In this document: positions 46,921 to 56,984 of the stretch, piece by piece | How positions within the stretch are numbered: the stretch's first letter is position 1 | How the letters are laid out: each line of letters begins with the position of its first letter | Assembly: GCA_009777235.1 (NCBI GenBank) | Contig: WRMH01000006.1 | Span: forward strand, 51,897 to 115,896 | Length of the DNA: 64,000 nt | Direction of reading: 5' to 3' | Source: Oscillospiraceae bacterium | GTDB taxonomy: Bacteria > Bacillota > Clostridia > Oscillospirales > Oscillospiraceae | Notes under the pieces: generated by a model | Database searches by the model: none | What the model was told of the DNA's origin: nothing | Seen by the model: the letters and a program-made list of their open reading frames with translations, nothing else | Program-made: the position numbers and the translations under genes

Positions 46921-47688
46921 ATGGTAAAAAGCGAGGAAAAATTCACAGGCATAGCGAATCTTTATAAAAATTTTAGGCCATCATATCCAAAAGAACTTAT
47001 AGACTATTTATACTCACAGGTTGGATTTCTTGATAGCAGTATTATAGCGGATGTTGGTTCGGGAACAGGGATGTTTAGTCACCTTCTGATAGAACGAGGT
47101 AGCAGTGTTTATTGTGTTGAACCAAATGACGATATGCGCAAAACAGCCGAAAGTGACTTGGTGGGAGCTGGGCTAAAAAACTTTTATTCAATTAATGCTT
47201 CTGCAGAAAATTTAAAACTACAAGAGAAAAGCATTGACTTTGTGACAGTAGCGCAAGCGTTCCATTGGTTTGACAGGATATTATTCAAGTCGGAATGTCG
47301 CCGGGTTTTGAGAAATAATGGTGCAGCAGTTCTTGCGTGGAATTTTTGGGATTATAGTGCTAAGATTATTAAAGAGCAATATATAATACGCGAAAAGTAT
47401 TGCGTGGGTACGCAAGGTTTAATGACGAGGGATATGCAAAAAAGTGATGTTCGAAATTTTTTCTTAGACGAAATTTATGAAAAAAGAAGAGTCAAGAATG
47501 ATTTATTTTTGAATCGCGAATCTTTTATTGGTCTATATCTTACTGGATCACACAGTCCAAGAGAAAAGAAAAATCCTGAAAAATATTATGGATTGATAAA
47601 AGAATTGAATATGCATTTTGATCAACATAATATAGGCGGAACCATTCATTTACCACAATTTACAGAATGTTATATTGGAATGGTTTGA
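46921..47688 (+). CDS. Class I SAM-dependent methyltransferase (Methyltransf_11 type)
   Basis: This 255-residue protein has the SAM-binding DVGSGTGMFS loop (residues about 41-50), an acidic VEPND after strand 2, and VAQAFHWF at the post-IV motif. GGGAGGAC lies upstream of the ATG. Related proteins are annotated UbiE/small-molecule methyltransferases. The substrate cannot be told. It stands between the phosphorylase-domain gene and a transposase fragment. Confidence 0.87.
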   Translation: MVKSEEKFTGIANLYKNFRPSYPKELIDYLYSQVGFLDSSIIADVGSGTGMFSHLLIERGSSVYCVEPNDDMRKTAESDLVGAGLKNFYSINASAENLKLQEKSIDFVTVAQAFHWFDRILFKSECRRVLRNNGAAVLAWNFWDYSAKIIKEQYIIREKYCVGTQGLMTRDMQKSDVRNFFLDEIYEKRRVKNDLFLNRESFIGLYLTGSHSPREKKNPEKYYGLIKELNMHFDQHNIGGTIHLPQFTECYIGMV

Positions 47689-47849
47689 AATTATCGAGAG
47701 TTATTGCGTTATTTTTTGGAAACTAACTAATGCCTACCGAACAATCGAAAAGTCATTAAAAACGATAGTCTATCAAGCACTTGCGTGGTATAATATCTGA
47801 AAGGAAAAGCGCGAAAATTGATAAAAACCCTTGCAGGCGGCGTAAGAAA

Positions 47850-48719
47850 ATGTACAAGTTTCCAAGCAGGCAAATAAGCATAGAAGATTTTGGAATGCCG
47901 TCGCCGTCAGGCGTCAAATTGAATTCTGAGAACCATTGGGTGCAAAAGGCAGTGCAGATACCGTGGGATGAGATAAAGAAACGGCATACGGCGTTGTTTA
48001 AGAATCACAAGGGAAATGTTGCAAAACCACTTCGTTTGGCATTGAGCGCATTGATAATCAATACAAAGCGAGGCTTATCAGACGTGGAGACGGCACTGCA
48101 GATACAGGAAACACCCTGCTTGCAATATTTTTGCGGAATGGGCGCATACGAAGACAAACTGCCTTTTGCCCCATCGCTGATGGTATATTTTCGTAAAGGG
48201 CTGACCCCTGAAATACTTGGCGAAATCAATGAAATGATAAGAGCAAAGATGGGGCACCACTGCCGAATCAGCCGACAAGCGGCAAAGGCGATGAATCCAA
48301 ACCACCGAACGAAGGGACCCTGCATAGTGGATGCGAGCTGTGCGCCACAGAAAATACGATACTCGCAGGACAGTTCGCTGCTGAACGAAGCGCGGGAGAA
48401 TCTTGAGGGCATGGCAGACGAACTTCATGAACCGACAGATAGTGAGAAACCGCGTACATATCGCAAGAGAGCGCGGCGCGAATACATTAAATTCTCAAAG
48501 AAGCGCAAGAAAACATTTAAGGAAATTCGCAAAGCGGTAAAGCCTCAACTTCAATATATCCGACGAGACCTGCGAATAGTCGACGAGTTATTGGAAAAGG
48601 AAAGACGCCGCCAAAGTGGCTCGCGTAACGGCTATCAACCATCAGACCTCTATGAACAACAGCTCTTGATGTACAACAACCGCAACCACACAATAGCCGA
48701 CAGAATTGTCAGTTTTTAA
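47850..48719 (+). pseudogene. IS5/IS1182-type transposase, C-terminally truncated
   Basis: I read the start as ATG 47850 (MYKFPSRQI). The N-terminal helical domain is followed by a conserved GLSDVETALQIQETPCLQYFCG-type segment and IVDASCAPQKIRYSQDSSLLNEAR, holding the first catalytic Asp region. The frame stops right after the ADRIVSF phrase, where the complete protein continues with the catalytic core and DDE end. The element is therefore dead. The break lies at about 48715, just before a small DUF6809-like gene on the other strand. Confidence 0.85.
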
Positions 48720-49499: not shown

Positions 49500-49718
49500 A
49501 AACAGAAGTCAACCGTTACCTTGGTATTTACATTTTGTGAGGGGACTTTCTTTCACGCAAAATGATGCTTCAGAGAAACTGATAATGAGTTTTGAGTTGT
49601 TAAATGGAGAGATTCTTGATTAATGAGTTTTGCCATGTATAGGACATTAGTAGTGTGTGTATTTTCTCCGACAATGGATTGAATTAACTGTATATTTTTG
49701 AATTGGAAGAGACATTTT

Positions 49719-50384
49719 ATGGGGATAAGCAGAAAAAAAAGAAACAGGAGGAAAAATGCCAATAAAGGTGTACCAAATATCACTCAAAATCCTCAACATC
49801 ACCAGAATAATCATGATTGTGATGTATTAAAAAATACTAATACTATCGATTTGGTTTTAACCCACATTTCTGGAATATTGGAAAATAGGCGAGAACAAAT
49901 CGCAGAAAGATCAACAGTTAGTTTGGCGGCTGCTTCAGGTTTATTTGTTCTGATTATCAGTTTTATAACCGGGGCGTTCAACCAAGAGCGTGAGTTTTAT
50001 ATAATTGTGATCATATGCTTAATTATATCTTTATTATTAACGGCTATTTCGATTATTACATCACTTGACTTGATAAAGAGGATTTCTAGAAAGAAAAATC
50101 AGAGAAAAATACCTGAGAAAAACATTTTGTTTTTCGGCTGGATTGCCACCCAAACAGAAGATGCATTATACAAGCAGTATTCAAAATTATGCAATGACGA
50201 TTATAGAAAAGCGCAAATTCGACAATCAATATCGTTATCAAAAAACTTGCAATACCGATATAACCAATTAAAGAAGACTTACGTATTTTTTGTTCTTGGG
50301 TTGATTACATACATTATTTCTATTACTTTGAATATACTGTATGAACACGATGTTTTTTCTCAACTTGCTCAGTGGATTAAATGA
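49719..50384 (+). CDS. Pycsar-effector-like (PycTM) membrane protein
   Basis: I start at ATG 49719 with GGAAGAG 8 bases upstream, giving 221 residues. After a basic N-terminus come two membrane segments (about 75-96 and 98-122). A charged loop with FFGWIATQTEDALYKQY and LCNDDYRKAQIRQSI follows, then YRYNQLKKTYVFFVLGLITY as a third segment. This pattern resembles the Pycsar effector TM domain (PF18967-like). Such effectors open membranes when a cyclic nucleotide binds. No pyrimidine cyclase is nearby, so the trigger is unknown. It overlaps no gene but precedes the MBL operon by 37 bases. Confidence 0.65.
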   Translation: MGISRKKRNRRKNANKGVPNITQNPQHHQNNHDCDVLKNTNTIDLVLTHISGILENRREQIAERSTVSLAAASGLFVLIISFITGAFNQEREFYIIVIICLIISLLLTAISIITSLDLIKRISRKKNQRKIPEKNILFFGWIATQTEDALYKQYSKLCNDDYRKAQIRQSISLSKNLQYRYNQLKKTYVFFVLGLITYIISITLNILYEHDVFSQLAQWIK

Positions 50385-50421: not shown

Positions 50422-51144
50422 ATGGAAGTAGTTTTATTGGGAACAGGGTCGATTCTTACAACAAGTCTTAGTTCTTGCGCTGTTTTGGATTCCAGAATAA
50501 TGCTTGATTGTGGCAATGGTGCTGTAAAGGCATTGCGTCGCAATAATATCGATCCAAAGAGTGTTGATATTTGCCTAATAACGCATTTTCACGCTGATCA
50601 TTTTTTTGATATACCCTTTATGCTCTTGGAACAGGGACTTCGGCAACTGCGTGAAAATGAGTTCATCATAATTGGGCCTAATGACACTAAGCACCGTATA
50701 ATAAATCTCTTTAATTTAGCTTACCCGGAAGATTGGGATAAAATCCAATCCCAATCTAAACTCAAAGTAATTGAAATATCAGAACCACGGCAAGTATTTC
50801 AAGTGTATGGTTATGATATTACAAGCGTAAAAGTAGAGCATGCAAACTATGATGCCTATGGCTATATAGTCTCCGACGGTCAATTCTGTGCGGGGTTTAC
50901 CGGAGATGCTGTGCTATGCGAAGGCGTCATCGACATTACTGAAAGTAGCAATATTGTTTTCGCAGATATGAGCTTTGAAAACCCCTCAAAAGGTCATATG
51001 GGATTAAGTGATATTGAAATTCTTATGAATGAATATGGTCAAAATAAACGCATAATTCCGACGCATATGACAGACAATGTTAGAAATGTATTTTCACAAA
51101 AGCATTTCCCTGCACCAGAGGATGGTGCAAAATATTCGTTATAA
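50422..51144 (+). CDS. Metallo-beta-lactamase-fold hydrolase (RNase Z-like)
   Basis: I start at ATG 50422 (MEVVLLGTGS) with GGAGG upstream, giving 240 residues. The LLGTGS opening, metal-binding THFHADHFFD motif (H-x-H-x-D-H), a later FTGDA Asp, and IPTHM His fit the RNase Z/phosphodiesterase branch. Substrates range from RNA to cyclic nucleotides and small esters. It leads a tight plus-strand operon with HprK-like, radical SAM and kinase genes. Confidence 0.88.
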   Translation: MEVVLLGTGSILTTSLSSCAVLDSRIMLDCGNGAVKALRRNNIDPKSVDICLITHFHADHFFDIPFMLLEQGLRQLRENEFIIIGPNDTKHRIINLFNLAYPEDWDKIQSQSKLKVIEISEPRQVFQVYGYDITSVKVEHANYDAYGYIVSDGQFCAGFTGDAVLCEGVIDITESSNIVFADMSFENPSKGHMGLSDIEILMNEYGQNKRIIPTHMTDNVRNVFSQKHFPAPEDGAKYSL

Positions 51145-51191
51145 GTTCGTAATTAGAATTATTCTACACATAAGGAAAAGGTGATGCGAAG

Positions 51192-52106
51192 ATGGTTATA
51201 ATTGAGAGTCGATTGCCAAAAATTTTTGGAGTAGTTGTTGATGGATTTAGCGTTGATATAGCTAATCGATTGAAAAAATGGGTAGTGCCTTTTTGGAACA
51301 CTGACTGTTTAAGCGATTACATTAATATACTTACGATTGTTCCAGTATCTACAGGAAATGAGGTGGGTTATAGAGTTGGTGTATGCTATATAGACTCTAA
51401 CAATTCTGTTGACAAAATAGTTAGCCTGATATTGCACCATACAAGAATAATATTCAAGCTGTGTGCTATGCAATATGGTTATGTAAATTTACATTCAGCG
51501 TGTATTTCTTACAACGATATAGGAATATTGATTGATGCACCACGAAATAATGGAAAAACGACGGTTTTACTCGAAGCACTTTCAACAGGTGATTTTTTAT
51601 TGATTGCTAATGACCAAGTTATGCTAAATCACAATAACATGATTTCATATGGTTATCCTGCTACGGTAGGACTAAGGACAAGCTCTCTTTCCCATAAATT
51701 GCAAAGCAAAGTTATTCGGTATGAAAATGATCCATATGTTAATGGTAAAAAGCCAATAGTACATATTGTCGATATTGCTGATGAATTTGATGCAACTATC
51801 TGTCCTCAAGCTCAGATCAAGGTACTTGTTAACTATTCAAAGGCGAATAATTATAATGAATTACATGTCAAAACCAGTTTTGTGAACGGTCGCGAAAAAC
51901 TCAAGTCCATGGAATTTCCACTTACAACGGCATACAGAAGTGAAGTTGTCGAGTATTATTTGGGTCGGGTGAGTGAAGTTGTTCATCCTATCTTTTGCAA
52001 AGAAAATCACGATTACACGTTACTATTGATTGATGTTTCTTGCGGAATAAAACAAATTCCCAATTTATTGGAAAAGATAAAAACGTCTATAATGGAGTTA
52101 AGTTAA
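51192..52106 (+). CDS. HPr kinase-like P-loop protein
   Basis: The 304-residue protein has a Walker A-like APRNNGKTT near residue 118 and a following IANDQVML strand in the position of the HprK acidic pair. LHSACISYND before the loop is also typical of HprK-like proteins in peptide natural-product clusters, which phosphorylate peptides or small substrates. The N-terminal 90 residues are not recognised. It begins 48 bases after the MBL gene and ends 1 base before the radical SAM gene. Confidence 0.72.
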   Translation: MVIIESRLPKIFGVVVDGFSVDIANRLKKWVVPFWNTDCLSDYINILTIVPVSTGNEVGYRVGVCYIDSNNSVDKIVSLILHHTRIIFKLCAMQYGYVNLHSACISYNDIGILIDAPRNNGKTTVLLEALSTGDFLLIANDQVMLNHNNMISYGYPATVGLRTSSLSHKLQSKVIRYENDPYVNGKKPIVHIVDIADEFDATICPQAQIKVLVNYSKANNYNELHVKTSFVNGREKLKSMEFPLTTAYRSEVVEYYLGRVSEVVHPIFCKENHDYTLLLIDVSCGIKQIPNLLEKIKTSIMELS

Positions 52107-52107
52107 T

Positions 52108-52953
52108 ATGGATAATTCTCCAAATAGAACCACACATCTTATTAGCGCGTGCTTAGAACTAACAAATGAATGCGAAGTCAACTGTCCTTATTGCTTATTG
52201 GATTGCAAACAACAATTTGTTTCAAAAAAAAGATTGTTTCAGATTGTTGACGCTCTTCTTGAACATGGTGTTAGGAGATTTTCCATTGGAGGTGGTGAAC
52301 CTCTTTGTTCTGAAGATGTCTATTCTATTGGTATACGGATCAAAGAAGCAAGTTCAGAATCTTTATTAAGAACTTCAGGTTGTAGACCAATTAATTTAAA
52401 CATTATCGAACAGGCGTATGACTTGATTGATATTTCCATTGATAGCACATCTGCCGTATATTATAGAAGGTGTAAACCAAACGCTGATATAAAAATAGTA
52501 CTAAAAAATATTGAGGATATATTAAAGGCAAGCTTTGAATTGCGTTGCAATGTACTTGTAACCAAATTAAATTATAATGACATTATCCGTTCAATAGAAC
52601 ACCTCATATTGCTAGGTGTTAAAAATATCAGAATGCAACAATTAATACATAGAGGACTTTCCAAAGCAAAATATGAAGAACTTATGATTTCTGGCAATGC
52701 CTATAACACCCTAATGGAAGAGTTAAAACATATATCGGAAAGAGCAAAAGTGCATATATCGGATTTAAAATCGACCACTCAACGAGCACTATGTATAATT
52801 AAGCCAAATGGATTAGTCTATATAGCAAATCAATTTTGTTTGGAATTCTTTGGCGATATATTTGATCATGCCACTTTGACGAAAGTAGGTGAGCAGTTAT
52901 ATGATATCCAGAAAGAATTATACCAAAGCAAAGCTGAATTCTATTTGCCGTGA
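52108..52953 (+). CDS. Short radical SAM protein
   Basis: This 281-residue protein has the 4Fe-4S motif C-EVN-C-PY-C near residue 25, a GGGEPL SAM-binding turn near 65, and the usual partial TIM-barrel. The C-terminus (IIKPNGLVYIANQF) looks like a SPASM-type segment but lacks the dense cysteines needed for extra clusters. GGAG precedes the ATG by 10 bases. The kinase gene begins 53 bases before its stop. The substrate is unknown, and no small precursor peptide gene was found nearby. Confidence 0.88.
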   Translation: MDNSPNRTTHLISACLELTNECEVNCPYCLLDCKQQFVSKKRLFQIVDALLEHGVRRFSIGGGEPLCSEDVYSIGIRIKEASSESLLRTSGCRPINLNIIEQAYDLIDISIDSTSAVYYRRCKPNADIKIVLKNIEDILKASFELRCNVLVTKLNYNDIIRSIEHLILLGVKNIRMQQLIHRGLSKAKYEELMISGNAYNTLMEELKHISERAKVHISDLKSTTQRALCIIKPNGLVYIANQFCLEFFGDIFDHATLTKVGEQLYDIQKELYQSKAEFYLP

Positions 52954-53818
52954 TTTAGTTTCAGAAGACTTGGAATCATATATTGAGAAATCATATGCGT
53001 TGCTTCTCTTTACAAAGAATAATGTTATAAAAGTGTTTGATGAGAATTACTCGCGGTCTAATAATACCTTGATGAAGGAATATGAATGGGATAATCAATT
53101 TGAATATCTATCTCCTAAAGTTATTTGCGGATACAGAGGCATTAATGACCATGATATATTAATTACTAAGCGCATTCCATCTATATCTAGTGTTTGTTTA
53201 ATGTTGTCTTGTAAAACCATACAGCCAAATGAAATATTAACAATATTTGAATTTATAGAAAAACTTGAGCTCCCATTATCCAATGAATCTCATGCGGATT
53301 TATATAAACGTTACCTTAAGAACATTGTGTACCAAATCGAAGAATTATCTAAATCATGTAGGGATGATGTTTATTTGCATTTGGTTAAGAAATACATTGA
53401 ATCGGTAGACTCAGATATTTTTATTTTTTCATGTAAAAACAAAAGGGTACGTAGTGTTCACGGCAATTTATTCAGTTCCAACATATTCTTACATGAAAGT
53501 CAGGTTATTATTATAGACCCGATATCTGATGGGCATATATCGTCAGTAGCTGACATTATCGTAGATATAGCCACTTTTTTTGTGGATGTTAGTATTTTTT
53601 GCGACGATACACTAAAAAGTTGCATTCGCCACGCCCTTAATGAAAAATACTCTGTTGATGAAAGATTGCTTTTCAAAATGCATTATATTTTGAAATTATT
53701 GGTTCGTTTAAGATTTGCTTTTTTAGAACGAAAATTGCACAACAACAATGTTGCAAATGCTAACGAAATAATTATTGAGCAGGTTCCAGAATTGCTTTGT
53801 AAGGAAATCTTAGTATAA
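52901..53818 (+). CDS. APH/choline-kinase-like small-molecule kinase
   Basis: I start at ATG 52901, which has AGGTGAG 7 bases upstream, inside the radical SAM gene. The 305-residue protein carries VHGNLFSSNIFL as the Brenner motif (H-G-x-L-x5-N) and IIIDPISDG as the metal motif, both of the APH-type kinase fold. Such enzymes phosphorylate antibiotics, amino alcohols or sugars. Overlap with the upstream gene implies coupled translation. It completes the MBL/HprK-like/radical SAM operon. Confidence 0.78.
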   Translation: MISRKNYTKAKLNSICRDLVSEDLESYIEKSYALLLFTKNNVIKVFDENYSRSNNTLMKEYEWDNQFEYLSPKVICGYRGINDHDILITKRIPSISSVCLMLSCKTIQPNEILTIFEFIEKLELPLSNESHADLYKRYLKNIVYQIEELSKSCRDDVYLHLVKKYIESVDSDIFIFSCKNKRVRSVHGNLFSSNIFLHESQVIIIDPISDGHISSVADIIVDIATFFVDVSIFCDDTLKSCIRHALNEKYSVDERLLFKMHYILKLLVRLRFAFLERKLHNNNVANANEIIIEQVPELLCKEILV

Positions 53819-54993: not shown

Positions 54994-55791
54994 TTAGACT
55001 TGACTGTGGCATTGGAAATTGTAGAAAAGTTTGTCACGAAACGGCGCGACAGCTATTTCACCGGCGGCTACGTCCACTCTGAAACTGCGGTCGGGGTAAA
55101 CTTCCCGTGCGGCTTTAAGCATATCTATAACTTCATGTCCGCGCCTCTCATATTCCGCTTGCTCCGGTTTTGGGAAATGCGAGCAGTATATACATTTTGT
55201 GTTGCAAAAATCAGCTCCATACTTTGAGCTAATATTCAACACCGTGATAGCCGGTTCAATGTCCCAATAACCAAATTCCAGATTTGGGCAGCCGTCGCAA
55301 ACGGATGGTCTATTATGCCGCCAATTGTCAATTATCTCTCTGGCTTGCTCTTCATATCGGCGAAAATTCACTTTGGGGTCTGGGCTTGCTTCAAACTCAA
55401 GCCTTTTCATAAACTCGGGAACACAGCACACTCCGATTTTGTTGTCAGTAAGTATGAAATAATGTCCCATATTGTGACAGCCTTTGCGATATTCAACGGG
55501 CTCAAAGAATTTTATCGCCTTTCTTTTTATCCCTCGCGCAATTAGTTCGGATACAATGCCCGCATACTTTTCCCTTGTTGGGGTGATGTATATTTCATGC
55601 ACAGGCCAATTAGCGATCGCGGCATCAAGAGGCAAAATATCTATATCACTTAATTGAAACTTGGTATAATGCTTCGTTTCGTCTGCGTCGGCAAAGCACA
55701 CGGGGATAATGCCGCGACTGTTCCAATCGGCAAAATGATTTTGGGCGTTTTGACCGGCTCCATAGAAAATAATCTGCTTTTTCATACACAT
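54994..55791 (-). pseudogene. Rossmann-radical SAM protein, C-terminally truncated at the type III TA locus
   Basis: The 265-residue frame has an N-terminal Rossmann-like domain (IIFYGAGQNAQNHF) and then a radical SAM domain: LNISSKYGADFCNTKCIYC shows the C-x3-C-x2-C cluster near residue 200. Only about 65 residues follow the motif before TAG, so most of the radical SAM barrel is missing. The break is 21 bases from the toxI promoter. Its 5' end overlaps the methyltransferase gene by 10 bases. Insertion of the TA locus probably cut it. Confidence 0.75.
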
Positions 55792-56984
55792 GATTCCCTT
55801 GCGTGTGCATCTTTTACTGTGTATCCAAGCGCGGAAAATTGCCTGCGGACTTCTTTGCGGATCGCTTCATCCTCAATCGTAATAACTAATGTTTTGCCGT
55901 CGCCGGGAGACGATATATCCGGCGTATCAACTTTATGTCCGCATATTTCTTTTATATTGTCCGCCGCAATATCCCAGATAGGCGACACGAAAGTTATACC
56001 TTTACTCTTGCAGTATTTCAGAAAACCTGTCATACCGCGTCCCGCACCGTAGAAAATAGTTTCAGCAGATAAATGCAAGATTAGAAATTCTATTACCTCA
56101 CTGTGCCAACAAGACCAGTCAGCTTTTCCCGTTGCGTAATAATTTGTGTTGAGTTGCAATGCCTTCTTTAAGGCAATCAATTCTTTATCCGCATAGTGTT
56201 CGGAAAGAACACTCAATATTGAATCCATTCTTATACTTCGCGGGTCAATTTCCCACGGCAGCAAAAGCGACTCGAATACATTTTGAATGTATTTGCGTGT
56301 GTCGGGCGTTATCTGAAACGCGCCGATATTTTGATATAAAGATTTTTTCAGTTGTATGCGCTCGGCCGCTACACTTGAAAACAAGTGTCTGCAAGCATAT
56401 GCCTTCGGAGGGTTGAAATGTGTCCACAGCAGAATATCATGCAGCACCACAATTGCCCCGTCTATCAGATATGGAAGAACGCATAAGAAATTGAGCGATT
56501 CTATCGGATGAAAATGGGCTGTATCAAGCACCAAAAAGTCAAATTTACCCATTTTATCTCCTAACTCGGAGATAACTTCGCTCGGGTCTTTTCCGGTAAT
56601 AAGCGTCCAACAGTCAAGGGGCAAATCGGGATGTGTCAGCGCAAAATTGCCAATTGGTTTGTCGCTGGTATGTACGCACTTCTCACCTGTTCGTTCATTA
56701 GTAGCGGCTGTATAACGTCCATATTCCATCAAATCAATAGACGTAAGTTTCGCGTTCGGAGTGCTTCGGATAGCGTGAAGTATCTGCGCGCTTCCCTCAC
56801 CAAAATTCACGCCGATTTCAAGCACATTTTTTGGCTTATAGTATGAGAGTAAGCCGTTCGTAAAACAGCACTCATCGAATCCCATCATCGGATGCTCATC
56901 AACACACGGTTCCAAGTCATCAAGAATCTCTGTACAATATTCCTCCGGCGGTACCGGCAGTTTCGTAATGCGCAGCATATTCAT
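55782..56984 (-). CDS. Methyltransferase with C-terminal Rossmann domain
   Basis: The 400-residue protein has an N-terminal class I methyltransferase domain (KNVLEIGVNFGEGSAQIL near residue 53, then SIDLMEYG), like the Methyltransf_24 group. Residues about 300-395 form a Rossmann module (TIFYGAGRGMTGFL) similar to the one in the downstream radical SAM gene and the DUF4422 gene. It likely modifies a sugar or its carrier. It overlaps the next gene, so the two were coupled before truncation. Confidence 0.8.
   Translation of the reverse strand: MNMLRITKLPVPPEEYCTEILDDLEPCVDEHPMMGFDECCFTNGLLSYYKPKNVLEIGVNFGEGSAQILHAIRSTPNAKLTSIDLMEYGRYTAATNERTGEKCVHTSDKPIGNFALTHPDLPLDCWTLITGKDPSEVISELGDKMGKFDFLVLDTAHFHPIESLNFLCVLPYLIDGAIVVLHDILLWTHFNPPKAYACRHLFSSVAAERIQLKKSLYQNIGAFQITPDTRKYIQNVFESLLLPWEIDPRSIRMDSILSVLSEHYADKELIALKKALQLNTNYYATGKADWSCWHSEVIEFLILHLSAETIFYGAGRGMTGFLKYCKSKGITFVSPIWDIAADNIKEICGHKVDTPDISSPGDGKTLVITIEDEAIRKEVRRQFSALGYTVKDAHARESCV

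Follow-up and report, generated by a model that had tools for sequence, protein, structure and literature searches.

An HprK-like kinase gene beside radical SAM and probable pseudokinase genes in a low-GC island of an Oscillospiraceae genome

Introduction

HprK-like kinases in biosynthetic loci have so far been described for lasso peptides, where homologs of HPr kinase phosphorylate the C-terminal Ser of the precursor (PMC8498205). Inactive kinase homologs also serve in peptide pathways: KinH and TvaE work with partner enzymes in RiPPs (PMC9415263). Exchange of the kinase motif HGD for HGN occurs in VRK3 and in the pseudokinase domains of the JAKs, the latter with a DP motif as well (PMC2639636). 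Our literature search returned nothing relevant on clusters that combine HprK, radical SAM and phosphotransferase genes.

Here we analysed a window of 64,000 nucleotides of an Oscillospiraceae bacterium (GCA_009777235.1, contig WRMH01000006.1), in which an earlier sequence-only reading had proposed a cassette of four genes for an MBL hydrolase, an HprK-like kinase, a radical SAM enzyme and an APH-like kinase.

Results

The four genes form a same-strand run of consecutive open reading frames, all of them open and full length (Table 1). Only 1 bp separates the HprK-like from the radical SAM gene, and the ATG of the APH-like gene lies within the radical SAM gene, giving an overlap of 53 bp; the MBL gene is followed by a gap of 47 bp. 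Because of these joints, coupling is tight for the HprK-like, radical SAM and APH-like genes and loose for the MBL gene, so that the tight packing first described applies to the last three genes and not to the MBL joint. Promoter-like sites were no more frequent than in shuffled sequence, no Rfam RNA was found and no transporter, resistance or scaffold-building gene adjoins the cassette.

Table 1. Features of the locus and of compared loci. Positions are those of the window unless a locus or accession is given.
Feature	Position	Strand	Evidence or remark
Nucleosidase-domain protein, 630 aa	44946-46838	+	PF01048 6e-10
SAM methyltransferase	46921-47688	+	PF08241 5e-17
Transposase remnant	47781-48719		inside low-GC stretch; GC3 0.50
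2-TM protein, PycTM domain	49698-50384	+	PF18967 31.6 bits, gathering 27.2
Four-gene run	50422-53818	+	consecutive ORFs
MBL-fold metallo-hydrolase, RNase Z/phosphodiesterase-like branch, 240 aa	50422-51144	+	PF12706 7.3e-14, metal ligands
HprK-like P-loop kinase, 304 aa	51192-52106	+	family profile, motifs
Radical SAM enzyme, 281 aa	52108-52953	+	PF04055, CX3CX2C, degenerate C-terminal SPASM
APH/protein-kinase-like, probable pseudokinase, 305 aa	52901-53818	+	motif order and spacing
ORF, 182 aa	54268-54816	-	no Pfam match
ORF, 265 aa	54994-55791	-	no Pfam match
Methyltransferase-domain gene	55782-56984		
RiPP-like modules	L110:6151-8556, L118:23-2401, L133:531-3106, L135:784-3062, L105, L124, L131		
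HprK-like relative with altered Walker A	L107:5697-6716		
Three-radical-SAM cluster (L102/L111/L112)	G267:C1:2629000-2648000		
Parageobacillus plasmid operon (L113)	NZ_CP040554.1:7142-19560		

A GC3 of 0.26-0.31 is common to the four genes, the 2-TM gene, the methyltransferase gene and the nucleosidase-domain gene (0.28-0.29 in the latter two), against 0.44-0.55 in the flanking genes (43829, 54268, 55782, 57145 and 59267). Given this shared low GC3 and the higher values outside, the segment from 45 to 54 kb is one horizontally acquired stretch, and the low-GC unit reaches further upstream than the four genes. The 2-TM gene lies 37 bp upstream of the MBL gene, and its product has a PADLOC PycTM match at 5e-13. 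Its matching GC3 within one stretch suggests a history shared with the cassette, and it may belong to the same transcript as the four genes. PADLOC further reports PDC-M60C (4e-21) in the part of the island between 44946 and 47688; we regard the nucleosidase-domain and methyltransferase genes as island members and make no claim that they belong to the pathway.

In the 630-aa protein the nucleosidase/phosphorylase domain is split by an insert, the N-terminal part looks helical, and PADLOC matches to PDC-M60C and to a PN-superfamily effector mark it as a possible defence gene. Downstream of the island, the 182-aa ORF resembles ToxN/AbiQ-type proteins by eye only, and the 265-aa ORF, which sits behind the methyltransferase-domain gene, carries a radical-SAM-like motif, CNTKCIYC.

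Against PF07475 the HprK-like protein scores 17.6 bits (E 0.003), short of the gathering score of 33.3. A profile of ten relatives nevertheless has HPr kinase structures as its best PDB matches (7e-7), and in the structure alignment the His, the Walker A and the Asp line up with it. Homology to HPr kinase, as first suggested, therefore holds by family profile, and because the Pfam gathering score was missed the protein is best regarded as a distant relative and not a plain family member. H101, K122 and D141 are invariant among its relatives; the Walker A, APRNNGKTT at residue 116, keeps GKT, and D141 is preceded by Asn instead of Asp, as in most relatives. The AF2 model, computed from the single sequence without an alignment, reached a pLDDT of 34, too low for use. 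In the relative at L107 the Walker A reads GGKFAWKTT, with Trp for the Gly of GKT, so that some members of the group likely do not bind ATP normally.

The radical SAM protein matches PF04055 at 9.6e-14 (52.3 bits, cut-off 29.5) with an intact CX3CX2C motif (C22-C26-C29). Its C-terminal tail resembles the start of a SPASM domain from which most cysteines are gone; with only C229 and C244 there and no Pfam match to the seven-Cys SPASM domain, the lack of a full SPASM noted earlier is confirmed. MoaA and pVip are the best profiles (46-64 bits). Neither identity was accepted: viperin was rejected at 46 bits against the NCBIfam cut-off of 180 for pVip, and the MoaA GTP 3',8-cyclase at 64 against 325 bits, the protein ending in FYLP.

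The MBL protein has an intact metal site (HFHADH, H55-H57-D59-H60, with H140, D162 and H215), every ligand of which is kept in a 38% identical Nonomuraea protein. It matches RNase Z and cyclic-nucleotide phosphodiesterase models at 8e-24 and 8e-18, far under their cut-offs, and scores 19.9 bits against the Pfam model of the Apyc1 anti-Pycsar nuclease, below the gathering score of 50. Among the matches listed, its relatives are found in Nonomuraea, Actinomadura and Nocardiopsis (37-41% identity) and in Clostridia (about 30%). Since none of the best 80 loci listed carries an HprK, radical SAM or APH-like relative, or shows consistent neighbour genes, the MBL protein represents a stand-alone small subfamily and not a cassette marker.

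The APH-like protein presents kinase-like motifs in the expected order, VIKVF, KEYE, HGNLFSSN (187-194) and IIIDP. Its assignment rests on these motifs without a profile match: no Pfam APH family was hit at E<=1, a Bud32 match stands at 0.023, and our own APH profile gave 0.025 in a one-sequence search, at about zero bits. The single-sequence AF2 model, again without an alignment, was unusable. HGN stands where the catalytic HGD (H-G-D-x4-N) is expected, and since the catalytic Asp is thereby missing, the protein is probably a pseudokinase; of the APH-like kinase proposed earlier, the ordered motifs remain and the catalytic residue does not.

A second copy of the four-gene set was found in none of the samples of genus, family, order, class, phylum, plasmids, phages and viral contigs. 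The radical SAM query covered genus, order and class samples, the HprK query relatives, class and phylum samples, and the APH-like and 2-TM queries the genomes of the bacterial family; each protein was also run against viral contigs. All of these are samples, most species lying outside the HprK, radical SAM and APH-like queries. Within them a conserved four-gene cassette, which the sequence-only reading had expected to recur, is not supported. What recurs instead is an HprK-like gene accompanied by an APH-like gene and by oxidoreductases that vary and, separately, an HprK-like gene with a radical SAM gene in RiPP loci.

Five operons represent the first arrangement (Streptomyces, Parageobacillus and another Bacillota genome), with an APH-like gene in all five runs and radical SAM, SDR, FAD or inositol-phosphate enzymes added. 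Two Streptomyces plasmids carry FAD oxidoreductase-HprK-P-loop kinase-glycosyltransferase-NUDIX-phosphotransferase, G862 (Bacillota) has HprK-SDR-APH, and S. clavuligerus has rSAM-rSAM-APH-HprK with overlapping genes. The Parageobacillus plasmid encodes HAD-inositol phosphate synthase-AdoMet synthetase-DegT-like-SDR-HprK-P-loop kinase-SurE-APH-like, its APH-like gene lying below gathering (0.0044). As two of the Streptomyces operons are near-identical, the pairing amounts to four independent cases, and the loci were gathered by similarity to the window HprK, a selection bias on the link. In a local search, APH-like genes were present in the APH-associated HprK operons and in none of the RiPP-type and PqqD-type loci examined.

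In a tree of 23 HprKs the window protein groups with the APH-associated HprKs (support 93/91); this clade has long branches and few members, so its support is not decisive. Forcing the window protein among the RiPP-locus HprKs costs 10.4 log units and is not rejected (p-AU 0.084). The tree thus appears to favour the APH-associated over the RiPP-type grouping, without being decisive.

Several details of the gathered loci deserve mention. The Parageobacillus operon lies on a conjugative plasmid, its HAD gene encodes a HAD phosphatase, its DegT-like aminotransferase is split, and it also contains nucleotidyltransferase and PqqD genes; its gene content suggests a pathway to an aminocyclitol or a carbocycle, and some 8 kb further along the plasmid there is an annotated Pycsar pair. 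In a related cluster of G267, three radical SAM genes stand in tandem, broken up by transposases, along with PRPP-synthetase-like, HprK-like, cyclase-like and NTP_transf_5 genes and an ABC exporter.

The second arrangement recurs in the bacterial family of the window as a RiPP-like module of a Cys-containing peptide of about 86-100 aa, an HprK-like protein, a radical SAM/SPASM protein and sometimes PqqD; its precursors begin MKK-x-Y-x-x-P. A profile built from four such peptides was positive in control RiPP loci (1.6e-23, 3e-8, 1e-5) and recovered unseen precursors in L095/L105, L124 and L131; it gave no significant match in the window or in L102 and L107, although unrelated precursor classes would escape it; the absence of a precursor peptide noted at the outset is thus borne out. 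For all five proteins the hhalign probability of an RRE/PqqD-like domain was below 0.3%, in an insensitive comparison of single sequences with seven PqqD. With neither a precursor-profile match nor PqqD-like similarity, the window lacks the usual parts of RiPP-type HprK modules.

Discussion

Our preferred explanation, held tentatively and at somewhat short of even probability, is a horizontally acquired operon for phosphorylation and radical tailoring of a small molecule. The HprK-like enzyme would, at the expense of ATP, phosphorylate a hydroxyl on a small metabolite, more likely a sugar, a cyclitol or a nucleoside-like compound than a peptide, and the radical SAM enzyme would carry out a radical step on the same substrate. 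Phosphotransfer activity is probably lacking in the APH-like protein, which would bind and present the substrate or a partner, and the MBL hydrolase would act on a phosphoester, or a bond akin to it, in either the product or an intermediate. Here we infer the substrate class, the order of steps and every catalytic activity. There may be passengers among the four genes. A small-metabolite substrate, raised already from the letters alone, is plausible.

Among the alternatives, maturation of a RiPP ranks highest, although we consider it unlikely. The HprK-like protein would phosphorylate Ser/Thr of a precursor encoded elsewhere, the radical SAM enzyme would cross-link it and the APH-like pseudokinase would bind it, with the lasso-peptide kinases (PMC8498205) and KinH and TvaE (PMC9415263) as precedents. 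HprK-like genes stand directly beside radical SAM genes in seven loci of the bacterial family, and a precursor is detectable in six of them; the same precursor profile is silent in the window, which moreover lacks SPASM and PqqD-like domains and a protease or exporter beside the cassette, and the HprK tree prefers the APH-associated group. Rather less probable is that the genes came together by chance, or are now in decay, within a low-GC island that is mobile, the kinase being dead, the SPASM worn and the pathway lost. The HGN change, the degenerate SPASM, the set not being conserved elsewhere and the transposase remnant would all fit such decay, but the frames are open at full length, the core motifs of the MBL and radical SAM proteins are intact, the joints overlap and HprK-radical SAM adjacency recurs elsewhere.

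We give still lower weight to a defence-like operon of nucleotide signalling, in which a modified nucleotide produced by the radical SAM and HprK-like enzymes would open the 2-TM PycTM protein and the MBL hydrolase would degrade the signal. The 2-TM gene exceeds the gathering score for PycTM, is close to the cassette and matches its GC3; the island holds a PADLOC PN-superfamily-like protein, the MBL protein is weakly like cyclic-nucleotide phosphodiesterases and Apyc1 (PMC9117128), the top radical SAM profiles are MoaA and pVip, and an exporter is absent. However, no cyclase or nucleotidyltransferase was seen, including a Pycsar pyrimidine cyclase among the neighbours scanned, the viperin and MoaA cut-offs were not reached, homologs of the 2-TM protein number zero in 151 genomes of the bacterial family and in plasmids, and the HprK relatives have no adjoining 2-TM relative. 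Least probable of all we consider a five-gene defence operon, in which a messenger made by the radical SAM and HprK-like enzymes, a nucleotide both modified and phosphorylated, triggers the PycTM-type membrane effector, the MBL hydrolase resets the signal and the pseudokinase senses the trigger.

The window HprK seems to be part of a poorly known group whose members, in other bacterial gene clusters, are repeatedly accompanied by a second kinase-like gene, and its relatives in Streptomyces, in Bacillota and in the window genome sit with inositol-phosphate, aminotransfer, PRPP-synthetase-like and radical SAM enzymes. Should these relatives phosphorylate small metabolites, a regulatory kinase family would turn out to have a neglected branch whose chemistry is its own, and genome mining could use the HprK-APH pair as a handle.

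Compared with described systems, the locus shares with the lasso-peptide kinases ThcoK and SyanK an HprK homolog in a biosynthetic setting; these act on the C-terminal Ser of a precursor, whereas the window has neither lasso genes nor a precursor. KinH and TvaE, likened here by description, resemble the APH-like protein as kinase-like proteins without catalytic residues beside a modifying enzyme, but their partners are flavoprotein decarboxylases and not radical SAM or HprK proteins. Prokaryotic viperins and MoaA, whose profiles score best with the window radical SAM protein, remain distant at cut-offs of 180-325, and both the second cluster motif and the C-terminal GG of MoaA are absent. The RiPP-like modules (L110, L118, L133 and L135) likewise have an HprK-like gene directly beside a radical SAM gene, and differ in their precursor genes, full SPASM and, in some, PqqD, with no APH-like or MBL neighbour seen. 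Finally, S. clavuligerus pF1D35B (NZ_CP065243, L009/L114) has two radical SAM genes (one SPASM and one B12-binding by eye), no MBL gene, an APH that keeps HGD and another gene order; like the window, however, it has a single run in which radical SAM, APH and HprK-like genes overlap, and the two HprKs fall into the same tree group.
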